Below are positions 3,924 through 62,002 of a stretch of 64,000 nucleotides of DNA, piece after piece. How positions within the stretch are numbered: position 1 is the first letter of the stretch; each line of letters opens with the position of its first letter. The stretch is from positions 66,210,501 through 66,274,500 of the forward strand of contig NC_091263.1 of assembly GCF_042477335.2 (NCBI RefSeq), given 5' to 3'. The notes beneath the pieces are model-generated. The model saw only the letters and a program-made list of their open reading frames with translations, was not told the origin of the DNA and did not search any database. The translations under genes and the position numbers were made by a program. This DNA is from Ovis canadensis. Taxonomy: Eukaryota > Chordata > Mammalia > Artiodactyla > Bovidae.

Positions 3924-4004
3924 TTCAGATCCAGTAGCTTGAGGCCGAGTAAGAAAACCCTTAGGACTCTTTGCTGGCTTGTGACAGAAATCTACAAGAG
4001 CTGA

Positions 4005-5321
4005 TTATCTGCAAACCCTTATAAGTACGAAGTGACATATTCGGGCTGCCTGTGGTGGTGCCCACGGTTGCTTTGTAATCCTGATGCTCTGGTGCTGTGA
4101 AACAAGAAAAACACAGGTTGCTTGCTGGTACTGCATCACCATCAAGCCAAGATCCCTCCCCACCTGGCCCTTCCTTTTTCAGGGTCACACACAGGATCCT
4201 CGGGGCACAAGTTCCCCTCTGGCTGTGATAGTTGGAACATGAGATGGAATCCCCACACTCACAAAGAGATGAAGAGACTGAGGGAAGACAAGGGCTTCCC
4301 AGAGTCACAAGCCCATCCCAGCAAAGCTGGAAGGGAGCAGAGGCTGAGGGCTCGTGACTCTCAAAACTTTAGCACGGTCAGAATCCCTGGTATTCCTGGG
4401 AAAAGACCAATGGTCAGACCCCACCCCAGAGTCCAACTCAGGTGGTCTGAGTGGGGCTGCGAATCTGCCTTGCTGACAAGTTCTCTGGGTGGGGACCCCA
4501 GGAGAACCACTGCTCTAGGGACACACAGCCAGGACTGGAGACCTGGGGCTCGGGGAGGAAAGGGGCAGATAGGAGGGCCTTTCTCTGCCCTGGATGGGGC
4601 AGTGGGTCGTTGGTCCAAAGGAAGTTCCACAACCCCCCCCCCCACCCCCACAGCAGTTCCCACAGTACAGAAGGGGCCACTTACATTATTACAGGTGATG
4701 TCGAAGTTCCCCCTGACCTGGTCCAGGGTGACTGTCCCCTCACACCGTTTCAGCAGCTGGAAGGGCAGGCTCAAGGTCAAATGGAACCACCCACCCCCAG
4801 GCCATAAGCTCCCAGGCTCACACCAGGGGCCGGGAACCTTGCTCGAAGCCCGCTGTTCAGCAGTCTGGCAAGCAGCCTCCCGCGCCCCCAGCCCCAGGCT
4901 CACCCCATTCTCCTTGAAGTCACACTGCTCCGGGGGTTGCTGGGTGGTCCTGGGACACACGGTCTCCTTCACCCTGAAGCTCACCCGCTTCGGGCTGTCC
5001 GGGTCTTCATCCTGCTGGAGGATCGGAGTGGGGAGACTGGGCTCGGGCTCAGGCTTCCTTCTCTGCTCTGTGTCCCTGCTCCCCCACACAGAGGGTCCCT
5101 TCCCCAGCCCCCTCCCTGGCTCACATCCTGAGGAGGCTGGTCCAGCTCGAGAAGACGGTAAATGTTGGGTTCTGAGGACTGCTCATTGAGCTGATCCACA
5201 GCACGAAGCACGGCCTCCCTGTAGCTGAGGACCTGGGCGCTGGCCGAGGGCAGCGCTAGTCCCAGCTCAGGAGCCACAGCGAACAGCGCCCCAGGGAGAG
5301 GCTGGCCCTCTGGGTCTCCAT
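4005..5321 (-). pseudogene. CATHL1: CATHL1 (bactenecin dodecapeptide) copy B, signal-peptide frameshift
   Basis: Complete four-exon cathelicidin: exon 1 5125-5321, exon 2 4904-5011, exon 3 4685-4756, exon 4 4005-4094. Exon 4 reads HQSIRITKQPWAPPQAA then RICHFVLIRVCR and a stop, the same layout as bovine bactenecin (RLCRIVVIRVCR), with the two cysteines of the disulfide loop kept. Exons 2 and 3 are open and carry the four cathelin cysteines. Exon 1 is 197 instead of 198 nt: near 5266 one base is lost within the leucine codons of the signal peptide, so the frame shifts and reaches TAG about four codons on. The sister copy at 75-712 is intact at this place. Splice sites, TATA box and poly(A) signal are preserved, so the lesion looks recent. 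A sequencing or assembly error, or an allele, remains possible. Confidence 0.88.
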
Positions 5322-10413: not shown

Positions 10414-11693
10414 TCAACCTCGGATTCTGTGTCCAAGCCAGACTGGCCACGGCCAGCGTATCCCGACACTCTGAAACTGTGAAACAAGAAGACACAGGCT
10501 TCTTTTGGGACTGACTCAAGATTAACCCTTGACACACCCCGCACACACACACACCTCGACCTTCCCAGGCTGCCCAAGGAGCCTTGGAACCCCAGGTCAC
10601 GTTCCAGCTGTGACCCTTGGAGCATGTGGTTGAATCTCCACACTACAGACAGAGAGGAAACTGAGGGCCACAGATGGCATGGGGCTTCCCAGGGTCATAA
10701 GCACATTCCAGCAAAGCTGGATGAGAGCAGAGGCTGAAAACCCATGACTGCAGTCAGTGTGTCACAAACTGAGCTCAGTCACAATTCCCTGGAGGTCTTG
10801 TGAAAATCCAAATGGCTGGGCCCCACCCCAGTGTCAGATTCAGGAAGTCTGAGTGGGTCCTGAGGATCTATCTCATGTCAGTTCCCAGATGGAAACCCCA
10901 GTAGAGAACCCCTGCTTTAAGCGAGGCAGCCCCAGGGCTGGAGACCTGGGGCTTAGGGAAGGAGGGGCCAGGGTAGGAGGGGCTCTCTCTGCCCTGGATG
11001 GGGCAGCAGGTCATTGGTATAAAGGATGTTCCACACACTACCTTCCCTAGAAACCCCCCAGTCCAGAAGGGGCCACTCACCTCATTGCAGTTTAGGTCAA
11101 ACTGGTCATTGGACAGGTCCAGGGTGACTGTCCCCACACACTGTTTCACCCACTGGAAGGAGAGGCTCAGATCAAACTGGATCCCCCGAGCCATAACCTC
11201 CCAGCCTCACCGCAGGGACAGGAAACCTTCCCAGAAGCCCCCTGTTCAGCTCCCTGGGAAACATTGACCCTACTCCCAGCCTCACCCCTTTCTCCTGGAA
11301 GTCACACTGCTCCACAGGCTGCTGAGTCATTCTGGGGCACAGAGTCTCCTTCACCGTGAAGCTCACAGGCTTTCGAGTGCCCAGATCTTCATCCTGGTGA
11401 TGGATTAAAGCGGGGGGGAAACTGGGTTCAGGCTCACTTTTCCTTCTCTGATCTGTCTCCCTGCCCCTCACCTAGACAGCCCCCTCCCCAACTCACATCC
11501 TTGGGAGGCGGGTCTAGCTCCAGGAGGCGGTAAAGATTAGCTTCTGAGGACTGTTCACTGAGCTGATTGACAGCACGAAGCACGGCCTCCCTGTAGCTGA
11601 GGGCCTGGCGCTGGCCGAGGGCAGCACTAGTCCCAGGAGCAGGAGCCACAGTGACCACCGCCCCAGCGAGAGGCTGGCCCTCTGGGTCTCCAT
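10414..11693 (-). pseudogene. CATHL4: Indolicidin-type cathelicidin (CATHL4 orthologue) with new Trp-rich peptide; exon 1 frameshift
   Basis: Four exons: 11497-11693, 11286-11393, 11081-11152, 10414-10476. Exon 2 ([16 protein letters not shown]...) is closest to the bovine indolicidin precursor, and exon 3 reads [17 protein letters not shown]...CNE. Cathelin cysteines 85, 96, 107 and 124 are kept. Exon 4 reads FQSV then GIRWPWPVWLGHRIRG and a stop. It is short, rich in Trp, Pro and Arg, and ends in Gly like indolicidin (ILPWKWPWWPWRR-Gly), with the elastase Val just before. Exon 1 is 197 nt: one C is missing in GCGCCCAGG at the signal-peptide cleavage site (about 11605), shifting the frame after SASA. 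The TATA box is also altered (GCAGAAAA instead of GCATAAAA at 11733-11740). I infer a recently silenced gene. All splice sites are canonical, so a sequencing error should be excluded. Confidence 0.85.
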
Positions 11694-13845
11694 GGTGCCC
11701 AGTCTGCCTCCTCCCAGCCCGAGGGACCCTCCTTTTCTGCTCAGCCTGGGCCCTGATGCAAAGGCTTAACCAGGAGTCTTCCTGACCTGCCCCATCCCTG
11801 GCCTCCTCCCAGGGTGTGAGGTGGACTTGCCTCAGCCCCTGCTGTTGCTTCACGGGATTTCTGGGCAGTGGGCAGGGAGGCCCCTGTGCAAGGTGAAGAC
11901 AGGGTCTCCCTGACAACTCCTTGGTCTCTTCTGGACACCCTGGGGAGTGTCCCCGTCAGGCTTGCTCAAAATGCTTGAGTCCTTAAGAGATCTGTCTTAC
12001 ACTTGCACACCTGAACAACAGTTTAAAGGACTTTGCATGTGTGCATGCTAAGTCACTTCAGCATGTCCAACTCTCTGTGACCCCATGGACTGTAGCCCAC
12101 CAGGCTCCTCTGTCCATGGGGTTCTCCAGGCAAGAATACTGGAGTGGGTTGCCATGCCCTTCTGCAGGGGATCTCCCACATCCAGGGATCAAACCCATAT
12201 GTCTTACATCTCCTAAACTGGCAGGCGAGTTCTTTACCACTAGCTTCACATGGGAAGCCCTTAAAGGAGTATATTCAATAATAAATCTCCTGCTCAAGGC
12301 TCTTGGCCAGCAGGCACTCAACAACTTTCACGAATGATTGACAGTATCATCATGTCTAGAGCCTAACTGCCCCCCAAGCCAGTACCAAGGCAGGCATCAA
12401 GGCCACACCATCCTGTCCTCTGGGCTCAGTTCTCAGCCAGTCAGGAGCTTGGCTCCATCTGTCCCCTCTTCTGGATTCTTCTGATTACTTTCTCAGTCAT
12501 ATATTTCCTAAGGCCAGATGCCTGGGCTGTTACCCTGGTACCTCCCCAACTATGACGAAGTGTCATCTGTATCATGACCACAGTCCTTTGTTCTCTCTCA
12601 CAGTGAAGGCAACCAAAGGATGGACAGTCCTCACCAAATAATTAGGTTAGGTTAAAGCCTTTTCTTTATGCAGCTTCTAGAGAGCATGTTCCTAGCTGTC
12701 CCCTGACCACTGTCCACCCTCCACATCATTGTCTAGGGGTCCTGCAAACCACTGATTTGACCATTTCACCTGCCGCCTTGAGTCAAGGGCAACAAGGTTT
12801 GGAGCTTGATGCTCGGCGTTGTCCTCTCCCTCCTGCCTGCAGGCCTCGGGTGTCAGGCTCCCCTGTACATCCCAAACACTCAGGCACCTCAGAGCCACCT
12901 GCTCGTCTCCCATCTCTGCCCCTGATCCCTCTGCTTGCCCTGAACTTCCCCTTAGGAAGCCTTCACTGATGTCCACGGAGATTCAGCACCTCCTCATCTT
13001 GGGTCCCGCAGCCTTCAGGAAGTCTCTTCCAATTTGACCTCAAGTGAATTCCTGTCCCATGCCCTGGTAGGGACACCACGCTGTGGTGGCCAGTGTGTGG
13101 GGTTTTGAGAACACAGCTGGCTGAAAGGATAATGGACCAAAGCAATAGACGGGTCACAAGCCAAGAAGGAAATTCTTGTACAAGTTTCAGGAGGAATTAT
13201 CATGTAGTTGTGACTTCTGGGGTTGTTTTGGTCTCAGTTTTCCTATGGGACCCTTGGGGACTTGGCCAGGCCCCCTCGGAAGGTGGCAGGTGGATGGATA
13301 GTGCTGGTTACACATCAGCCTTGGAGAAGGAAGGAGAGGTGGGCCTCTGTGAAACCTGGTTTCACAGTCCAGGTATTGCCCAGTGGCCTATTGGTCAAAC
13401 TATATCCTTTTCCCAACTCAAATGAGGAAAAGGAGATGGTCACAGTAGAAAAGAATTGGCAACACACATGATTACTGGCTACTAGGTAAGCCTGAAACCT
13501 TCCCTGTGCCTTCTTTCCTCAGAAACTTTATATTTGCTCATACTTCAGACTGAAGTCCCCTCTCCCATCTTTGCACACCCTCAGGATCTCAGGGTGAGCC
13601 TCCTGGGAGACCACAACATTTGAGCAGGAAGTGAGCTGAGCTCATCCAGACATCCACTTCCGGGAGGATGGAGGAGGACAGAGCCCTTCACACGAGGCCC
13701 ACACACTCCTCCCTCTTCCTGGGTGCCTCTGTGTTCCCTCCCCACGGACTGGCTTGTGCTAGCGGAGGTCTTCCATCTGCCCATGGGTGCACTGGGAAGG
13801 TAGAAACAGCCCTTCCAGCAGCTCCTCCCAGGTTTTGACGAGTGT
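11694..13845. repeat. Shared 5' flank of unit 3
   Basis: Upstream flank homologous to that of the other units, interrupted by a Bov-tA SINE (12031-12260). The conserved distal block lies at about 13290-13480. No gene. Confidence 0.65.
12031..12260 (-). mobile_element. Bov-tA SINE, with target-site duplication
   Basis: Sequence reads gtccaactctctgtgacccc, actgtagcccaccaggctcc, tctccaggcaagaatactgg and ends cacatgggaagccc, the complement of a tRNA-derived ruminant Bov-tA element. Flanked by ttaaagga at 12023-12030 and 12261-12268. Confidence 0.85.
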
Positions 13846-17199: not shown

Positions 17200-17289
17200 G
17201 CCCTCTAAGAGTTAAGGACTCAGTCTCAATAAATGGGAAGAGGCGAGAAAGTAGAAATTGAATCCTGGAGGAAGTTGTTTTCACAAGAA

Positions 17290-17295
17290 TTTATT
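17290..17295 (-). promoter_or_regulatory. Poly(A) signal AATAAA of Bac6 gene
   Basis: AATAAA on the minus strand about 218 nt past the Bac6 stop at 17513-17515. Confidence 0.65.
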
Positions 17296-17512
17296 TTTCA
17301 CCATCCAGAAGTCTAAGCCAAAACAAATCAGACCCTTACGACTCTTCTGTGGACTCAGGATTCACCAAAATTCTTTAATGGGTGTGATGGCAGCCAATCC
17401 TTCACCATTTTCAAGGAAACCTTGAAATGAGAGATGTCAGCAGGAATGGACGTAGACTTGGCATTGGTCTTGGCCACAGCGCTAAACTCGACCTGGGCCT
17501 TCACAATGATTA

Positions 17513-19509
17513 TCACAGTGGTTTTGGCCATGGCCTTAGCCCTGGCCTTGGCAGTGGTAATGGCAATGGCTTTGGCCACGGTCTTGGCCCTGGCCTTGGC
17601 AGTGGCAATGGCAATGGCTTTGGCCATGGTCTTGGCCCTGGCCTTGGCAGTGGCAATGGCAATGGCTTTGGCCATGGCCTTTCGCTTGGGAAATGTTGAT
17701 GCCGGGGACGAAGTCTCCTGACACTCTGAAACTGTAAACCATGACAAAACAGATTTGTTGTGGGACGGGGCAAGGGTCAAGACAACATCCCTCACTTCAC
17801 ACCTGAACAGCCCTGTAACTGGGACACCACAAGTGTTGGGCCCGGTTCACCCTCTGGCTGTTATCTTTGAAGCATGTGATTGAATCCCTATGTACAGAGA
17901 CTTGTGGAGAAACTGAGGTCCACAGACAACATGAGGTTTCGCAGGGCCACAAGCCCATCCTAGCAAAGCTGGATTAGAGCAGGGGATGAAACATCATTAC
18001 TTACTTGAGTCAGTGCCTCTCAACCCAATGCCTCTCAGCCCAGTCAGAATTCCCTAAAGGCCTTGTGAAAGTACAATGGCTGGACCCCACCCCAGAGTCT
18101 GATTCATTCTGAGAGCTCAGTGGGACCTGAGACCTGTCTCATGTCAGTTCCCGGTGGGGACCACATTACAGAAACACTGCTCTAAAGGACAGAGCCAGGG
18201 CTGGAGACCTGGGGCTCGGGGGAGGGAGGGGCCTGGGTAGGAGGGCCTTTCTCTGCCCTGGATGGGGCACCGGGTCATAGGTCCAAAGCATGCTCCACAG
18301 CCCACTTGTTAGCATCTGCACAACACAGAAAGGGCCACTCACCTCATTACAGTTTAGACCAAACTGGTCATCAGACCGGTCCAGGCTGAGTGTCCCCACA
18401 CACTGTTTCACCAGCTGCAAGGGGAGCTCAAGGTCAAACTGGAACCCTCGGGCCATAACTTCCCTGGCTCACCTCATCCCCTAGATGCTGGAAACCTTCC
18501 CGAAGTTCCCTGTTCAGCTCAATGCTTCCCTGAGAAGCATTGATCCCAGCCCTCATTCCCTGCCCCCAGGCTCACCCCATTCTCCTTGAAGTCACACTGC
18601 TCTGCAGGCTGCTGGCTCAGCCTGGGGCACAGGGTCTCCTTCACCATGAAGCTCATTGGCTTTCAAGCTCCCCGGTCCTCCACCTGGTCAACGATCAATG
18701 TGGGGAGACTGGGCTTGGATCATGTTTCCTTCTCTCATCTGTCTCCCTGCCTCCCACCCGGACAGCAGCCTCTCCAGCCCGCAGTGTGTCCGGCCCTGGG
18801 CTTGGTGCTAGAGGCACAGGGGAGGGCACGGAGCCCTTGCCCGGCCTCATGGGCACTCAGAGAGCAGGAGCGGCCCTCACAGCAGCACTGCTGGCAGCGC
18901 CTCCCCTCAGAGGGACCCACGGAGGTCAGGGCCGCCTGCAGGAAGAGCCCTTGTCACTGGAGCCTCCAGGCTGACGGAGGCCCTCCTGGCAGGGAGACAC
19001 TGAGGTGCAGGGGGGACATTAGCAGGGAAGTCACCTCACAGAGCCTGTGACCCCTCCATCCCTGGAGCTCCCAGAAGTCCAGAGAGCCTGAGCCAGGTGT
19101 GCAGGGCACCTGATCCCACAGCAGAGAGGCTAAGGCAGGAAGCCTGGTGCTGGGAGGGGCCCCAGGTCTGGGAAGGTTTCCTGGAAGAGATGGGAGCCCA
19201 CCTAGAGGGAAAAGTGCCTTCCTGACAGGAGGACCAGCCTGAGCGAGGGGGCAACAGTGTGGCCAAGGCAGGCGGGAAAAGGGCCCGTCCCCAGCCCCCT
19301 CCCCAACTCACATCCTTGGGAGGCGGGTCTAGCTCCAGGAGGCGGTAGAGATTAACTTCTGAGGACTTCTCATTGAGCTGACCCACAGCACGAAGCATGG
19401 CCTCCCTATAGCTGGGGGCCTCGGAGCAGGCCGAGGGCAGCAATAGTCCCAGCAGCAGTAGCCACAATGAATACTGTCTCAGGCAGAGGCTGGCCCTCTG
19501 GGTCTCCAT
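17513..19509 (-). pseudogene. BAC6: Bac6-type proline-rich cathelicidin, nonsense codon in exon 2
   Basis: Exon 1 19312-19509, exon 2 18576-18683, exon 3 18343-18414, exon 4 17513-17731. Exon 1 (signal [14 protein letters not shown], then [12 protein letters not shown]) and exon 3 ([17 protein letters not shown]...CNE) are open. Exon 4 gives FQSV then a 68-residue peptide starting [13 protein letters not shown]. This is followed by three copies of the 16-residue unit [16 protein letters not shown] (last ending GL) and RPWPKPL. This is sheep Bac6, related to bovine Bac4, with one 16-residue unit more than the about 52-residue Bac6 I remember. In exon 2 codon 73 is TGA (18663-18665) where the sister genes have CGA (Arg), a CpG-type C-to-T change, which would truncate the protein inside cathelin. 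Otherwise splice sites, TATA box and poly(A) signal are normal, so this may be a null allele or a very young pseudogene. Confidence 0.87.
17532..17692 (-). repeat. 48-bp minisatellite encoding the 16-residue Bac6 units
   Basis: Plus strand shows ggccttggcagtggcaatgg and related blocks in about three tandem copies within exon 4. Codon units encode [16 protein letters not shown]. Confidence 0.8.
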
Positions 19510-57419: not shown

Positions 57420-59261
57420 GTGCCATTCATGAAATAATCTGTCACTTGTCTTCTCAGGGGTAAGAGGTCAAAAGGTCAAGCAGCAGACTCTCTCCCCAAT
57501 CACTGTAGAAGGCATTGACAAGGCCTGCACGCCTCCCTGCCTGGGAGCAGTTCTGTCTCCTTCTCAAGGGCTGAGACGGACACACTGTTGGCATCATTTC
57601 CTGTCTGCTATCAGAGGTCACATATGCAGGCTGAGTGCTTCCTCCATGCCAAGGGACATCTGGTCAACACTGATATAAAACATGAAAGGGCAAGATAGGC
57701 CTGAGGCTACAGGTGGGTTGCCATGGAAGCAGGATGGGCAATCATGGGAAGGAGTTGAAAACATGTGACCTGCACAGACGCCGTGTCATCCTGATGAGTG
57801 GTCCCCCTCTCCGTTTGGGCGGGAACATGCCAACTGTGACAGGCCTGATATGGAGTGTTTGCCAATTTCCATGATGTAAATATTCCTACCAAGGCTGATT
57901 TCAAGCTACCAAGAATATAACGACCAGCTCAAAAATACCCAGACCATTTAGCAGTTGGCTCTGGCAAGTCTGTATCTTCGGGCACAGGCCCACCAAAGCC
58001 CCCTCGGTTTCCTCTGTAGAGTTTCTTCCCTCAGCTTGGGGTGATGTAGAGTGAGAAGCATGAGGTTCCTCTAAACTGCCTGAAACCAGCCCCTCCAGCT
58101 CACCAAGAGAAGACAAGCCCAACAGGTAACAAAGTAAATGCTCTGTGAGATCCTGCCCTCTGTCCTTCTCAGGAACAAGTTGGCCAGAAGCAGACCTAAG
58201 AAAAGCATTGAGTAGAAGTCGTTTGTTTGGGAGGCGATTCCAGAAAGCACCGGCTGGAATGTAGAGAGGGGAGACAGGGCAGGACCTGAATCAGAAAAGG
58301 AGGTGTTGATGAACACATCAGTGAGGAAGCAGACATGGGCTCAACCCAGCTGGGGACCTCAGGCAGAGGGGTGAAACGTCTGCAAGCGGGCCACCCAAGG
58401 AGGAAGAAGAGGTGTTTTTCCATCAAGTCCCCTCAGTGGTTAGTTGAAGCTGCTCCCTGGATTCAAACTCCCCAGTGCTTCCAGTCTGCCGCAGAGCAAA
58501 GGTCAGCTAGAGAATGGGGAGTGGGCAGGACATGGGCAGTGTCTGAAACACACAGGCAAATTGACATGTGATTCTGTGCCTCTCACCCTCATGCAGAGCT
58601 CTTCACCCTGATGGACAAGATGCTTGTATTTAATGGTGCAAATTTTGTACCATGTGATCCCTAAACACAAGCCCACCACTTCAGTCTGGGACCCAGCTGA
58701 AGAAACAGTGCTGTGTCACAATGCCACAGGAAAAACCAGGCGGGGCAGGCAATTTCAGAATTAAAGGCCAGAGGTACGTTCTGGGCATTGCACCTGCAGG
58801 CTCAGCCCTGAGACTGAACTGCGTCTCTGTGAGTGTTTTACAAGGTGAGAAGCCTGGCCCCTCGTGGACTGTCAGCTCCACGTGAGCAGGAGCAGCATTC
58901 CCACCAGCACTGCACACACAGCAGGTCTCCGTACGTCCTACTGGGTGTTGGAGGAGGAGGGCAGGGGCGAGTGAAGGGCTCGGGAGGGACCCGGGGGTGG
59001 GGACACTGTCCTGGAGCTCCTGGGGCTACTGCCTCCTCCATGCCCTCCTGGAAGGAACAGGGGCCTCACGCTTCTCTGTGTTCACAGGAGTGATCTCACA
59101 CACAGACATAGATACACACATGCACATAGACACACACCCATACACAGACACACACACACGCACACGCACACACACATACACACACCCCTAACAGGTCCCG
59201 GTAAGTTAGAAGAGGGGAGACAATTGAAACTGAAGGCTGAAGGAAGTTGTTTTCACAAGAT
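57420..59261. repeat. Shared 3' flank of unit 8, with extension shared with unit 3
   Basis: 57420-57900 matches 8441-8905, and 57885-59261 is the common downstream flank. No gene. Confidence 0.65.
59096..59184. repeat. (CA)n microsatellite, unit 8
   Basis: Imperfect CA run with gaca, gata and cgca variants. Confidence 0.85.
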
Positions 59262-59267
59262 TTTATT
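59262..59267 (-). promoter_or_regulatory. Relic poly(A) signal of pseudogene unit 8
   Basis: AATAAA on the minus strand at the position used by the Bac5 gene. Confidence 0.5.
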
Positions 59268-59363
59268 TTTCAGATGCTGACACAGGGCAAAACTGATCCC
59301 AAGAGGTCTTCCCTGAGCTTCTGATTCACCAAAAACCCCTGTGAGGGAGTCATCTTCATATCG

Positions 59364-61380
59364 TTCAACTGTGGCCTGGGGAATGGAGATGGAGGTACTG
59401 TTTCTGGAGCCAACCATGGAGCACGGAGGTGGGTGGAGGGAACCACTGCCAGGGGCTCTCGTGGGGTTGAACGGCGATGAGCCAAATTTCCTGAAACTCT
59501 TAAGCTGTGCACCAATAAAAACAGGTTTCTGGTAAAAACTGGGTGACAGTCAAGACATGGCCCATCCCTTCCCATCTGACATTCCATTTGTGGTGGACTC
59601 CAGGAATCTTGGGGTCCCAGTTCACCTCTGGCTGTGACCCTTGGCACGTGCAATTGAATCCCTACACCCATAAAGAGATGAGGAAACTGAGGCCCACAGG
59701 AAGCCTGGGCCTTTCCAGTGTCCAAGCCCATCCCAGCAAAGCTGGATGGAACAGAGGCTGAAAGCCCATGAGTCCAGTCGGTGCCTGGCATATTCACAAC
59801 CCCCTGGAGGCTTTGTGAAAATCCAAATGCCTGGTCTCCACCCCAGAGTCTGATTCAGGAGGTTGGAAAAGACTGTGATGCTGGGAGGGATTGGGGGCAG
59901 GAGGAGAAGGGGACGTCCGAGGATGAGATGGCTAGATGGCATCACGGACTCGATGGATGTGAGTCTGAGTGAACTCTGGGAGACAGTGATGAACAGGGAG
60001 GCCTGGCGTGCTGTGATTCATGGGGTCGTAAAGAGTCGGACACAACTGAGCAACTGAACTGAACTGAACTGAGTGGAGCCAAGAACCTGCCTCTCTGTTT
60101 GTTTCTTCTTGGGGGCCCCATCAGACCATACTGCTCTAAGGTATGCAGAGCCAGGACTGGAGACCTAGGGCTCGGGAAGGCAGGGGCAAGGTCTGCCCTG
60201 GATTGAGGTGGGAGTAATTGATCCAAAGCATGTTCCAAACACCACAGCATTGTCAGCTGCACACCACAGAAGCAGCCACTCACCTCATAACGGCTTATGC
60301 GAATACATCGTCCCAGTGGTCCCCGGTGACTGTCAACCCATATTCTTTCACCGCCTGGAGAAGGAGGCTTGACGTCAAACTGGAACTCCTGGGCTATAAC
60401 CTGCCAGCCACACCCCACCTCACCGCAGGGACGAGAAAGTGTCCCCTGAAGTCCCTGGATTAGCTCCTTGGAAAGCATCCTCCTTCACTGCCCGCCCCCA
60501 GGCTCACCCCATTCTCCTTGAAGTCACACTGCTCCGAGGGCTGCAGGCTCGGCCTGGGGCACACAGTCTCCTTCACCATGAAGCTCACAGGCTTTCGAGC
60601 TCCCCGGTCCTCCGCCTGGTCAACGATCAAAGTGGGGAGACTGGGCTTGGCTCATGTTTCCTTCTCTGATCTGTCTCCCTGCCCCCGACCCGGACAGCAG
60701 CCTCTCCAGCCGACTGTGTCCGGCCCTGGGCTTGGTGCTAGGAGCACAGGGGAGGGCACAGAGCCCGTGCCCGGCCTCACGGGCACACAGAGAGCAGGAG
60801 CAGCCCTCACAGCAGCGCTGCTGGCAGCGCCTCCCCTCAGAGGGGCCCAGGGAGGTCAGGGCCGCCTGCAGGGAGAGCCCTTGTCACTGGAGCCTCCAGG
60901 CTGACAGAGGCCCTCCTGGCAGGGAGACACCGAGGTTCAAGGGGACATTAGCAGGGAAGTCACCTCACAGAGCCTGTGACCCCTCCATCCCTGGAGCTCC
61001 CAGAAGTCCAGGGAGCCTGAGCCAGGTGTGCAGGGCACCTGATCCCACAGCAGAGATGCTAAGGCAGGAAGCGCGCTGCTGGGAGGGGCCCCAGGTCTGG
61101 GAAGGTTTCCTGGAAGAGATGGGAACCCACCTAGAGAGAAAGTGCCTTCCTGACAGGAGGACCAGCCTGAGCGAAGGGAGTGACAGTGTGGCCAAGGCTG
61201 GGGGGAGATGGCTCCAGGAGGCGGTAGAGATTAGCTTCTGAGGACCGCTCACTGAGCTGATTGACAGCACGAAGCACGGCCTCCCTGTAGCTGAGGGCCT
61301 GGGCGCTGGCCGAGGGCAGCACTAGTCCCAGCAGCAGGAGCCCCAGTGACCAGGGAGAGGCTGGCCCTGTGGGTCTCCAT
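59364..61380 (-). pseudogene. Decayed cathelicidin pseudogene, Bac5-like 3' end with Bac7-type front
   Basis: Exon 1 remnant about 61210-61380, exon 2 60508-60615, exon 3 60284-60354, exon 4 remnant about 59364-59504. Exon 2 is still fully open ([30 protein letters not shown]). Exon 1 has lost about 8 nt inside the signal peptide, and its last codons with the splice donor are deleted into intron 1. Exon 3 is 71 nt, has lost its cysteines and contains a stop. Exon 4 has the acceptor and CTTAAGAGTTTCAGG in place of the usual LQSVR, but the Arg-Pro tetrads are gone; the 3' UTR follows the Bac5 gene. The long intron 1 is of the Bac6/Bac7.5/Bac11 type, so the locus looks like a hybrid. A BovB fragment sits in intron 3, and the TATA box is GCAGAAAA (61420-61427), as in the indolicidin-like unit. 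No function expected. Confidence 0.85.
59863..60071 (+). mobile_element. BovB LINE 3' fragment in intron 3 of the unit 8 pseudogene
   Basis: ttggaaaagactgtgatgct, ggaggcctggcgtgctgtga, cggacacaactgagcaactg followed by gaactgaactgaactga. Confidence 0.85.
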
Positions 61381-62002
61381 GGCCCCCAGTCTGCCTCCTC
61401 CCAGCCCGAGGGACCCTCCTTTTCTGCTCAGTCTGAGCCCTGATGCAAAGGCTCTACCAAGAGTCTTCCTGACCCCCCCAATCCCTGCCCTCCTCCCAGG
61501 GTGTGGGCTGGTCTTACCTCAAGCCTTCCTGTTGCCTCATGGGATTTCTGGGCAGTGGGCAGGGAGGCCCGTTTGCAAGGTGAAGAAATGGTTTCTGCAT
61601 CTCCTGACAACTTCTTGGCCTCTCTTGGATCCCATGGGGAGTGTCACCAGTGGGCTTGCTCAAAAGGGTTGTGTCCTCCAGGAGAGGGAGGGACCAGTCA
61701 CTGTCTGCATGCCCTCTGCCTCCACACCATGAGCTCCTCAGGATTCAGGGCAAAGGAGTGTATTCAGCACTCAACCCCCAGCTCTAGGCACTGCCTGGCA
61801 CACAGTATGCACTCATTTAACATTTGATGAGTGGATGACAGGACCAACCCCTTCTGAGCCTTACCCACCCAGCCTGTCCCTAGGCAGCCATCAACCCCAC
61901 ACCATCCTGTCTTTGGGGCCAGCCCTCAGCCTGTCAGGAGCTTGGCTCCATCTGTCCCCTCTCCTAGATTCATCTCCACTGTTTCTCAGTTAGGAAGTTC
62001 GC

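Follow-up and report, generated by a model that had tools for sequence, protein, structure and literature searches.

The gene that we describe here, a four-exon cathelicidin gene on the minus strand of the Ovis canadensis genome (gene C; the ten loci of its cluster are lettered A to J), is very probably the sheep-lineage CATHL4, orthologous to the indolicidin gene of cattle and to the CATHL4 genes of buffalo and musk deer, and inactivated in the sequenced haplotype. As read, it cannot make its peptide, though its peptide-coding end is still legible. The stretch of DNA that was analysed (the window, 64,000 nucleotides) corresponds to C19:66210501-66274500 in a search of the whole genome (2.974 Gb, 42 contigs), and the features discussed below are collected in the table.

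Gene C, its parts and the other cathelicidin loci of the cluster (window positions unless C19 is given)
Feature	Position	Strand	Description
Gene C, exon 1	11497..11693	-	197 nt (198 usual); ATG, signal peptide, start of cathelin domain; donor gtgagt
Gene C, intron 1	11394..11496	-	103 nt; 106 in musk deer CATHL4
Gene C, exon 2	11286..11393	-	108 nt, 36 residues; 30/36 with bovine CATHL4 (row without a database source)
Gene C, intron 2	11153..11285	-	133 nt; 137 in musk deer CATHL4
Gene C, exon 3	11081..11152	-	72 nt, 24 residues
Gene C, intron 3	10477..11080	-	604 nt; 603 in musk deer CATHL4
Gene C, exon 4	10414..10476	-	63 nt with stop; FQSV, then GIRWPWPVWLGHRIRG, then stop
Gene C, poly(A) signal AATAAA	10326..10331	-	82 nt 3' of the stop codon
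Gene C, short C run in exon 1	11607..11608	-	site of one-base loss, at the signal-peptide cleavage site; frame shift
Gene C, TATA-like box	11732..11739	-	CAGAAAAG, at -46
Gene I	left of window	-	SMAP34-like; no lesion in exons read
Genes A and B	window	-	dodecapeptide/CATHL1-like
Gene B	3979-5321	-	second dodecapeptide/CATHL1-like copy; one-base loss in exon 1
Gene D	17264-19509	-	OaBac6-like; in-frame TGA in exon 2
Gene E	start codon 28574-28576	-	OaBac11-like; GTG for ATG; exon 4 open for 140 codons
Gene F	window	-	OaBac7.5-like; no lesion in exons read
Gene G	window	-	Bac5-like; no lesion in exons read
Gene H	59237-61426	-	degenerate
Gene J	right of window, C19:66277569-66279504	-	SMAP29-like; no coding lesion seen

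That this is a cathelicidin gene is straightforward. It runs from 11693 to 10414 with AG/GT exon borders and a poly(A) signal, each intron beginning with GT and ending with AG, and it has the cathelin domain, the four cysteines, the four exons and the peptide in exon 4 that mark the family; its precursor, read through with an X at the lesion, matches the Pfam profile Cathelicidins (PF00666) with E = 5.8e-46. The peptide has 16 residues (3 Trp, 2 Pro, 3 Arg and 1 His) and ends in Gly, which is an amidation donor residue, so that exon 4 encodes what CATHL4 genes encode, a short cationic Trp-rich peptide with a C-terminal Gly. Coordinates, strand, exon 4 translation and peptide composition given in the initial annotation were all reproduced.

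The same annotation had named the gene a caprine orthologue of CATHL4, and introns, short exon 4, position, tree and peptide combine to make CATHL4, the gene of indolicidin, its most likely identity on the sheep side. The sizes of its introns (103/133/604) and of its 63-nt exon 4 agree with those of musk deer CATHL4 (introns 106/137/603, exon 4 of 66 nt; PMC6719980, Table 2). In musk deer, intron 1 of CATHL1p is 115 nt long and that of the other six genes 579 to 624 nt (PMC6719980). The neighbours of gene C are the Bac6-like D on one side and the CATHL1-like pair B and A on the other, and the Discussion of the musk deer paper describes CATHL1 and CATHL4 as closely located, although its Table 2 assigns CATHL1p and CATHL4 to different scaffolds (PMC6719980). 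Within the window, intron 1 measures 113 nt in A, B and G and 628 nt in D, E and F; a short intron 1 is therefore a feature of all four genes A, B, C and G, of which C alone has so small an exon 4.

The prodomain points in the same direction. The bovine side of this comparison consists of five rows out of CATHL1-7, including CATHL2, CATHL4 and CATHL6, that do not come from a database. Over exons 1-3, the prodomain of bovine CATHL4 comes nearest to that of gene C among the rows compared (112/125), ahead of gene G (108/125) and bovine CATHL2 (106/125). The exons do not contribute equally, since in exon 1 bovine CATHL4 and CATHL6 are tied (60/65) and in exon 3 bovine CATHL4 and gene G are tied (22/24), so that most of the signal comes from exon 2 (30/36, the best other row reaching at most 27/36). 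The bovine CATHL6 row (127 residues) is out of register in the counts for exon 2, exon 3 and the total, and was properly aligned for the tree. The claim that both exon 2 and exon 3 fit the bovine indolicidin precursor better than any other cathelicidin thus holds for exon 2 and becomes, for exon 3, a tie between the bovine row and gene G. A prodomain tree with bovine CATHL1-7 had been suggested as a check; run with these five non-database rows of the seven, it pairs gene C with bovine CATHL4 with support of 90/88, short of the 95/80 at which the tool stars a branch.

The mature peptide was compared with 35 published peptides, namely 8 CATHL4 peptides and 27 controls (20 other cathelicidins and 7 further peptides); the cathelicidin peptides were taken from PMC11762488, where they are tabulated, PMC10459175 and PMC6017362 supplied controls, and the table rows left out were, among others, the prophenins, eCATH-3, EA-CATH1, VicBac, P9 and the mini-ChBac peptides. 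In global alignment all eight CATHL4 peptides scored 20 to 43 with shuffle P <=0.018, and all 20 other cathelicidins scored -3 or lower; BMAP34, alone among the 27 non-CATHL4 peptides, reached a shuffle P of 0.001, yet with a negative score. The seven further controls scored 12 or lower (P >=0.11), and three of them that are short and Trp-rich (tritrpticin and two puroindoline peptides) gave P of 0.12 to 0.17. Global scoring penalises unequal length, so the low scores of the longer controls are partly due to length. Local alignment discriminates less: P fell below 0.05 for one of the eight CATHL4 peptides (buCATHL4C, 0.010-0.012) and for none of the 27 controls, and the scores of the short Trp-rich controls (26 to 30) fall inside the range of 23 to 31 spanned by the weaker CATHL4 peptides. 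A CATHL4-type motif occurred in 0 of 20000 shuffles, a figure that is not evidence because the motif was written after the peptides were known. A search of the PDB with the padded peptide gave no match.

The best global match is buffalo buCATHL4C, RIRFPWPWRWPWWRRVRG (P = 0.0006 with 5000 shuffles, 0.0010 with 3000 and 0.0004 with 5000), as against 0.016 for bovine indolicidin, and by these alignments the peptide of gene C is nearer to a long buffalo CATHL4 form than to indolicidin. With buCATHL4C and buCATHL4D (RIRFPWPWRWPWWPPFRG) it has in common an Arg-flanked Trp/Pro core, an IR near the N-terminus and a PWP, and with buCATHL4C also a C-terminal R[I/V]RG, but it is shorter (16 residues versus 18 in the long buffalo forms) and poorer in Trp (three versus five in buCATHL4C). 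In the long buffalo class, charged residues flank the hydrophobic core on both sides (PMC4684500), and it is this class that the peptide of gene C resembles. The long buffalo forms are presumably products of the same gene, which in buffalo is described as highly polymorphic and multi-copy, with variable copy number and active peptides (PMC4684500). Bovine indolicidin, an amide (ILPWKWPWWPWRR-NH2), is likewise a short Trp/Pro peptide, differing in having five Trp instead of three and in lacking an extra Arg that the sheep-side peptide has on its N-terminal side. Two CATHL4 copies have been reported in cattle, versus the single, broken one found here. The forest musk deer CATHL4, similar to gene C in gene anatomy (intron lengths and short exon 4), is reported to be functional and expressed, in contrast to the broken gene C; independent pseudogenisation of cathelicidins has been described in cattle and musk deer (PMC6719980).

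What breaks gene C is a single base. Its exon 1 measures 197 nt versus 198 nt in five of the six other window genes measured (A, D, E, F and G); gene B, the sixth, has 197 nt through a lesion of its own, and the degenerate gene H was left out of this comparison. The C run of gene C is one base shorter than in A, B, E, F and G, and gene D differs in sequence at this position. The loss reported in the initial annotation is real, its place being 11608-11607 and not exactly 11605. The shifted frame meets its first stop at codon 60, within exon 1, and upstream of the cathelin domain, as far back as the nearest preceding stop, no ATG was found in the cathelin frame; as had been claimed, the loss blocks the peptide, and this holds for the present assembly. 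The reading frame is thus not continuous from the signal peptide through to the mature peptide, which makes gene C a family pseudogene in this haplotype. As a rule, a stop more than 50 nt before the last exon junction leads to transcript decay, and as the stop of gene C lies 197 nt before that junction, nonsense-mediated decay of its transcript is to be expected. Gene C is likely silent in this haplotype. Its private changes number 7 synonymous and 7 non-synonymous (two of the latter in one codon), compared with 13/22 in A, 6/12 in D, 4/5 in E, 0/3 in F and 10/6 in G; the figures for gene C give no evidence of past constraint.

One may ask whether the lesion is a segregating null, an intact allele persisting in other sheep or goats and the peptide being made there. 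We consider this possible but on balance improbable. A single coding lesion in a gene otherwise clean fits a recent loss, and the buffalo gene shows high polymorphism and a variable copy number (PMC4684500); against this, the sheep and goat rows shown in the table of PMC11762488 contain no Trp-rich peptide, and gene C and the degenerate gene H have a changed TATA-like box in common, which suggests an older weakening. A bolder form of the same idea, which we likewise consider possible but improbable, is that sheep and their relatives are still polymorphic for CATHL4, with carriers of intact alleles making an undescribed Arg-flanked Trp/Pro peptide like the long buffalo forms, and others, as here, being natural knock-outs.

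As to the box itself, seven of the ten cluster genes read CATAAAAG (I, A, B, D and G) or CATATAAG (E and F), and the form of C and H, whose 5' flanks are 84% identical, may be a second weakness of gene C. Its occurrence in both suggests that the change predates the split of C and H in this region, or that conversion spread it. Gene J, without a coding lesion seen, also has a divergent box, GCGTAAAG, and the change is therefore a possible weakness and not a proof of silence. A scan for bacterial promoters, unsuited to a mammalian gene, returned 0 promoter-like and 0 terminator-like sites.

It is much less probable that gene C is intact and working and that the missing base is an error of sequencing or assembly. 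Such an error would agree with the lesion being the sole one in the coding sequence, with splice borders, four cysteines and final stop all kept, and with the nearby gene B being likewise one base short in exon 1, but 42 contigs for 2.97 Gb suggest a modern long-read assembly, the window is without any N, no lesion turned up in A, F, G, I or J in the coding exons that were read, and the C run is just two or three C long. The lesion is probably real in the animal.

A second copy of gene C was not found in the search of the 2.97-Gb genome (which is no proof of rarity), the next best match being gene G at 79%, and its exon 4 matched nothing in that search but itself. A pattern search for relatives beyond this genome, with exon 1 of gene G, returned 577 matches in genome contigs and 49 in viral contigs, of which 0 were confirmed. 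That gene C is not a true CATHL4 orthologue and is instead a mosaic paralogue, with parts taken from cluster neighbours by gene conversion, is to us highly implausible: its 5' flank and, by one count, its exon 1 (168/178, 20 gap positions) are nearest to H, exon 1 standing level between F (91.4%) and H (91.0%) by another, its exon 3 is nearest to E (66/72), its FQSV stub is common to D and its 3' flank is 91-92% identical to E and G over 256-325 nt (perhaps a dispersed repeat), but the coding part of exon 4 is without a match in the six window genes, save 19 nt with D, and without another match in the genome, and exon 2 and the introns are only 64-85% identical to each of the six genes, which argues against a recent donor.

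For the preferred reading, a sheep-side CATHL4 lost in this haplotype, we can sketch how the ancestral gene would have worked, its processing and activity being transferred by analogy from relatives. The signal peptide would have routed the cathelin proprotein into the granules of neutrophils, elastase would have cleaved after the Val of FQSV, as it cuts the cathelicidin proprotein after a Val (PMC5891874), and the C-terminal Gly would have been consumed in amidation to give a cationic Trp/Pro/Arg peptide, GIRWPWPVWLGHRIR-NH2. The target of this peptide would be bacterial membranes and perhaps nucleic acids, as for its relatives, since buffalo CATHL4 peptides disrupt membranes (PMC4684500) and DNA binding is also ascribed to indolicidin (PMC6284057). 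In the present haplotype, the one-base loss in exon 1 would lead to the stop at codon 60, to transcript decay and to no peptide.

The suggestion that the peptide had never been catalogued should be qualified. Four stretches of it gave no hit when the text of one open-access library was searched for the exact strings, the portions of the literature searched contained no CATHL4 of sheep or goat, and GIRWPWPVWLGHRIRG differs from the published peptides compared; sequence databases lie outside this scope and may include an automatically annotated CATHL4-like gene of sheep. Lineage-specific loss is already familiar in the cathelicidin family, which is known for such losses. A broken sheep-side CATHL4 would fit the missing Trp-rich peptide in the sheep and goat rows shown in the review table (PMC11762488), one broken copy set against the duplication in cattle and the expansion in buffalo provides a contrast of loss and expansion for one ruminant antimicrobial gene, and the legible exon 4 adds one more natural CATHL4 peptide sequence.

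Finally, the cluster as a whole deserves a few remarks. The sheep cathelicidins are known to lie on sheep chromosome 19 (PMC3487008), and the Pfam Cathelicidins profile gave at least 20 exon-level matches in the genome (40 candidates scored), all of them at C19 66.206-66.279 Mb, where ten loci can be distinguished, each of them on the minus strand. Lesions affect five of the ten (B, C, D, E and H), so that decay is common in the cluster; the other five, I, A, F, G and J, showed none in those coding exons that were read (with the splice sites of I and J checked in outline only). Gene H, nearest to gene C in its 5' flank and without special likeness to it in exons 2-4, is possibly a remnant of the 5' end of a second CATHL4. 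Gene B is identical to gene A in the translation of exons 2 and 3 and in its exon 4 peptide, RICHFVLIRVCR, a dodecapeptide that differs from the published sheep one, RICRIIFLRVCR (PMC11762488). Exon 4 of gene D has one proline-rich repeat more than the published OaBac6, gene G encodes a Bac5-like peptide identical to OaBac5gamma in the 43 residues listed, and the peptide of gene J, RGLGRLGRKIVRGVKKYGPTVLRIIRIAG, departs from SMAP-29 in 3 of 29 residues (PMC11762488). Genes D, E and F are carried by tandem units of 8-9 kb at about 16800-43000, whose aligned blocks are 81-92% identical between D and E and 90-96% between E and F.
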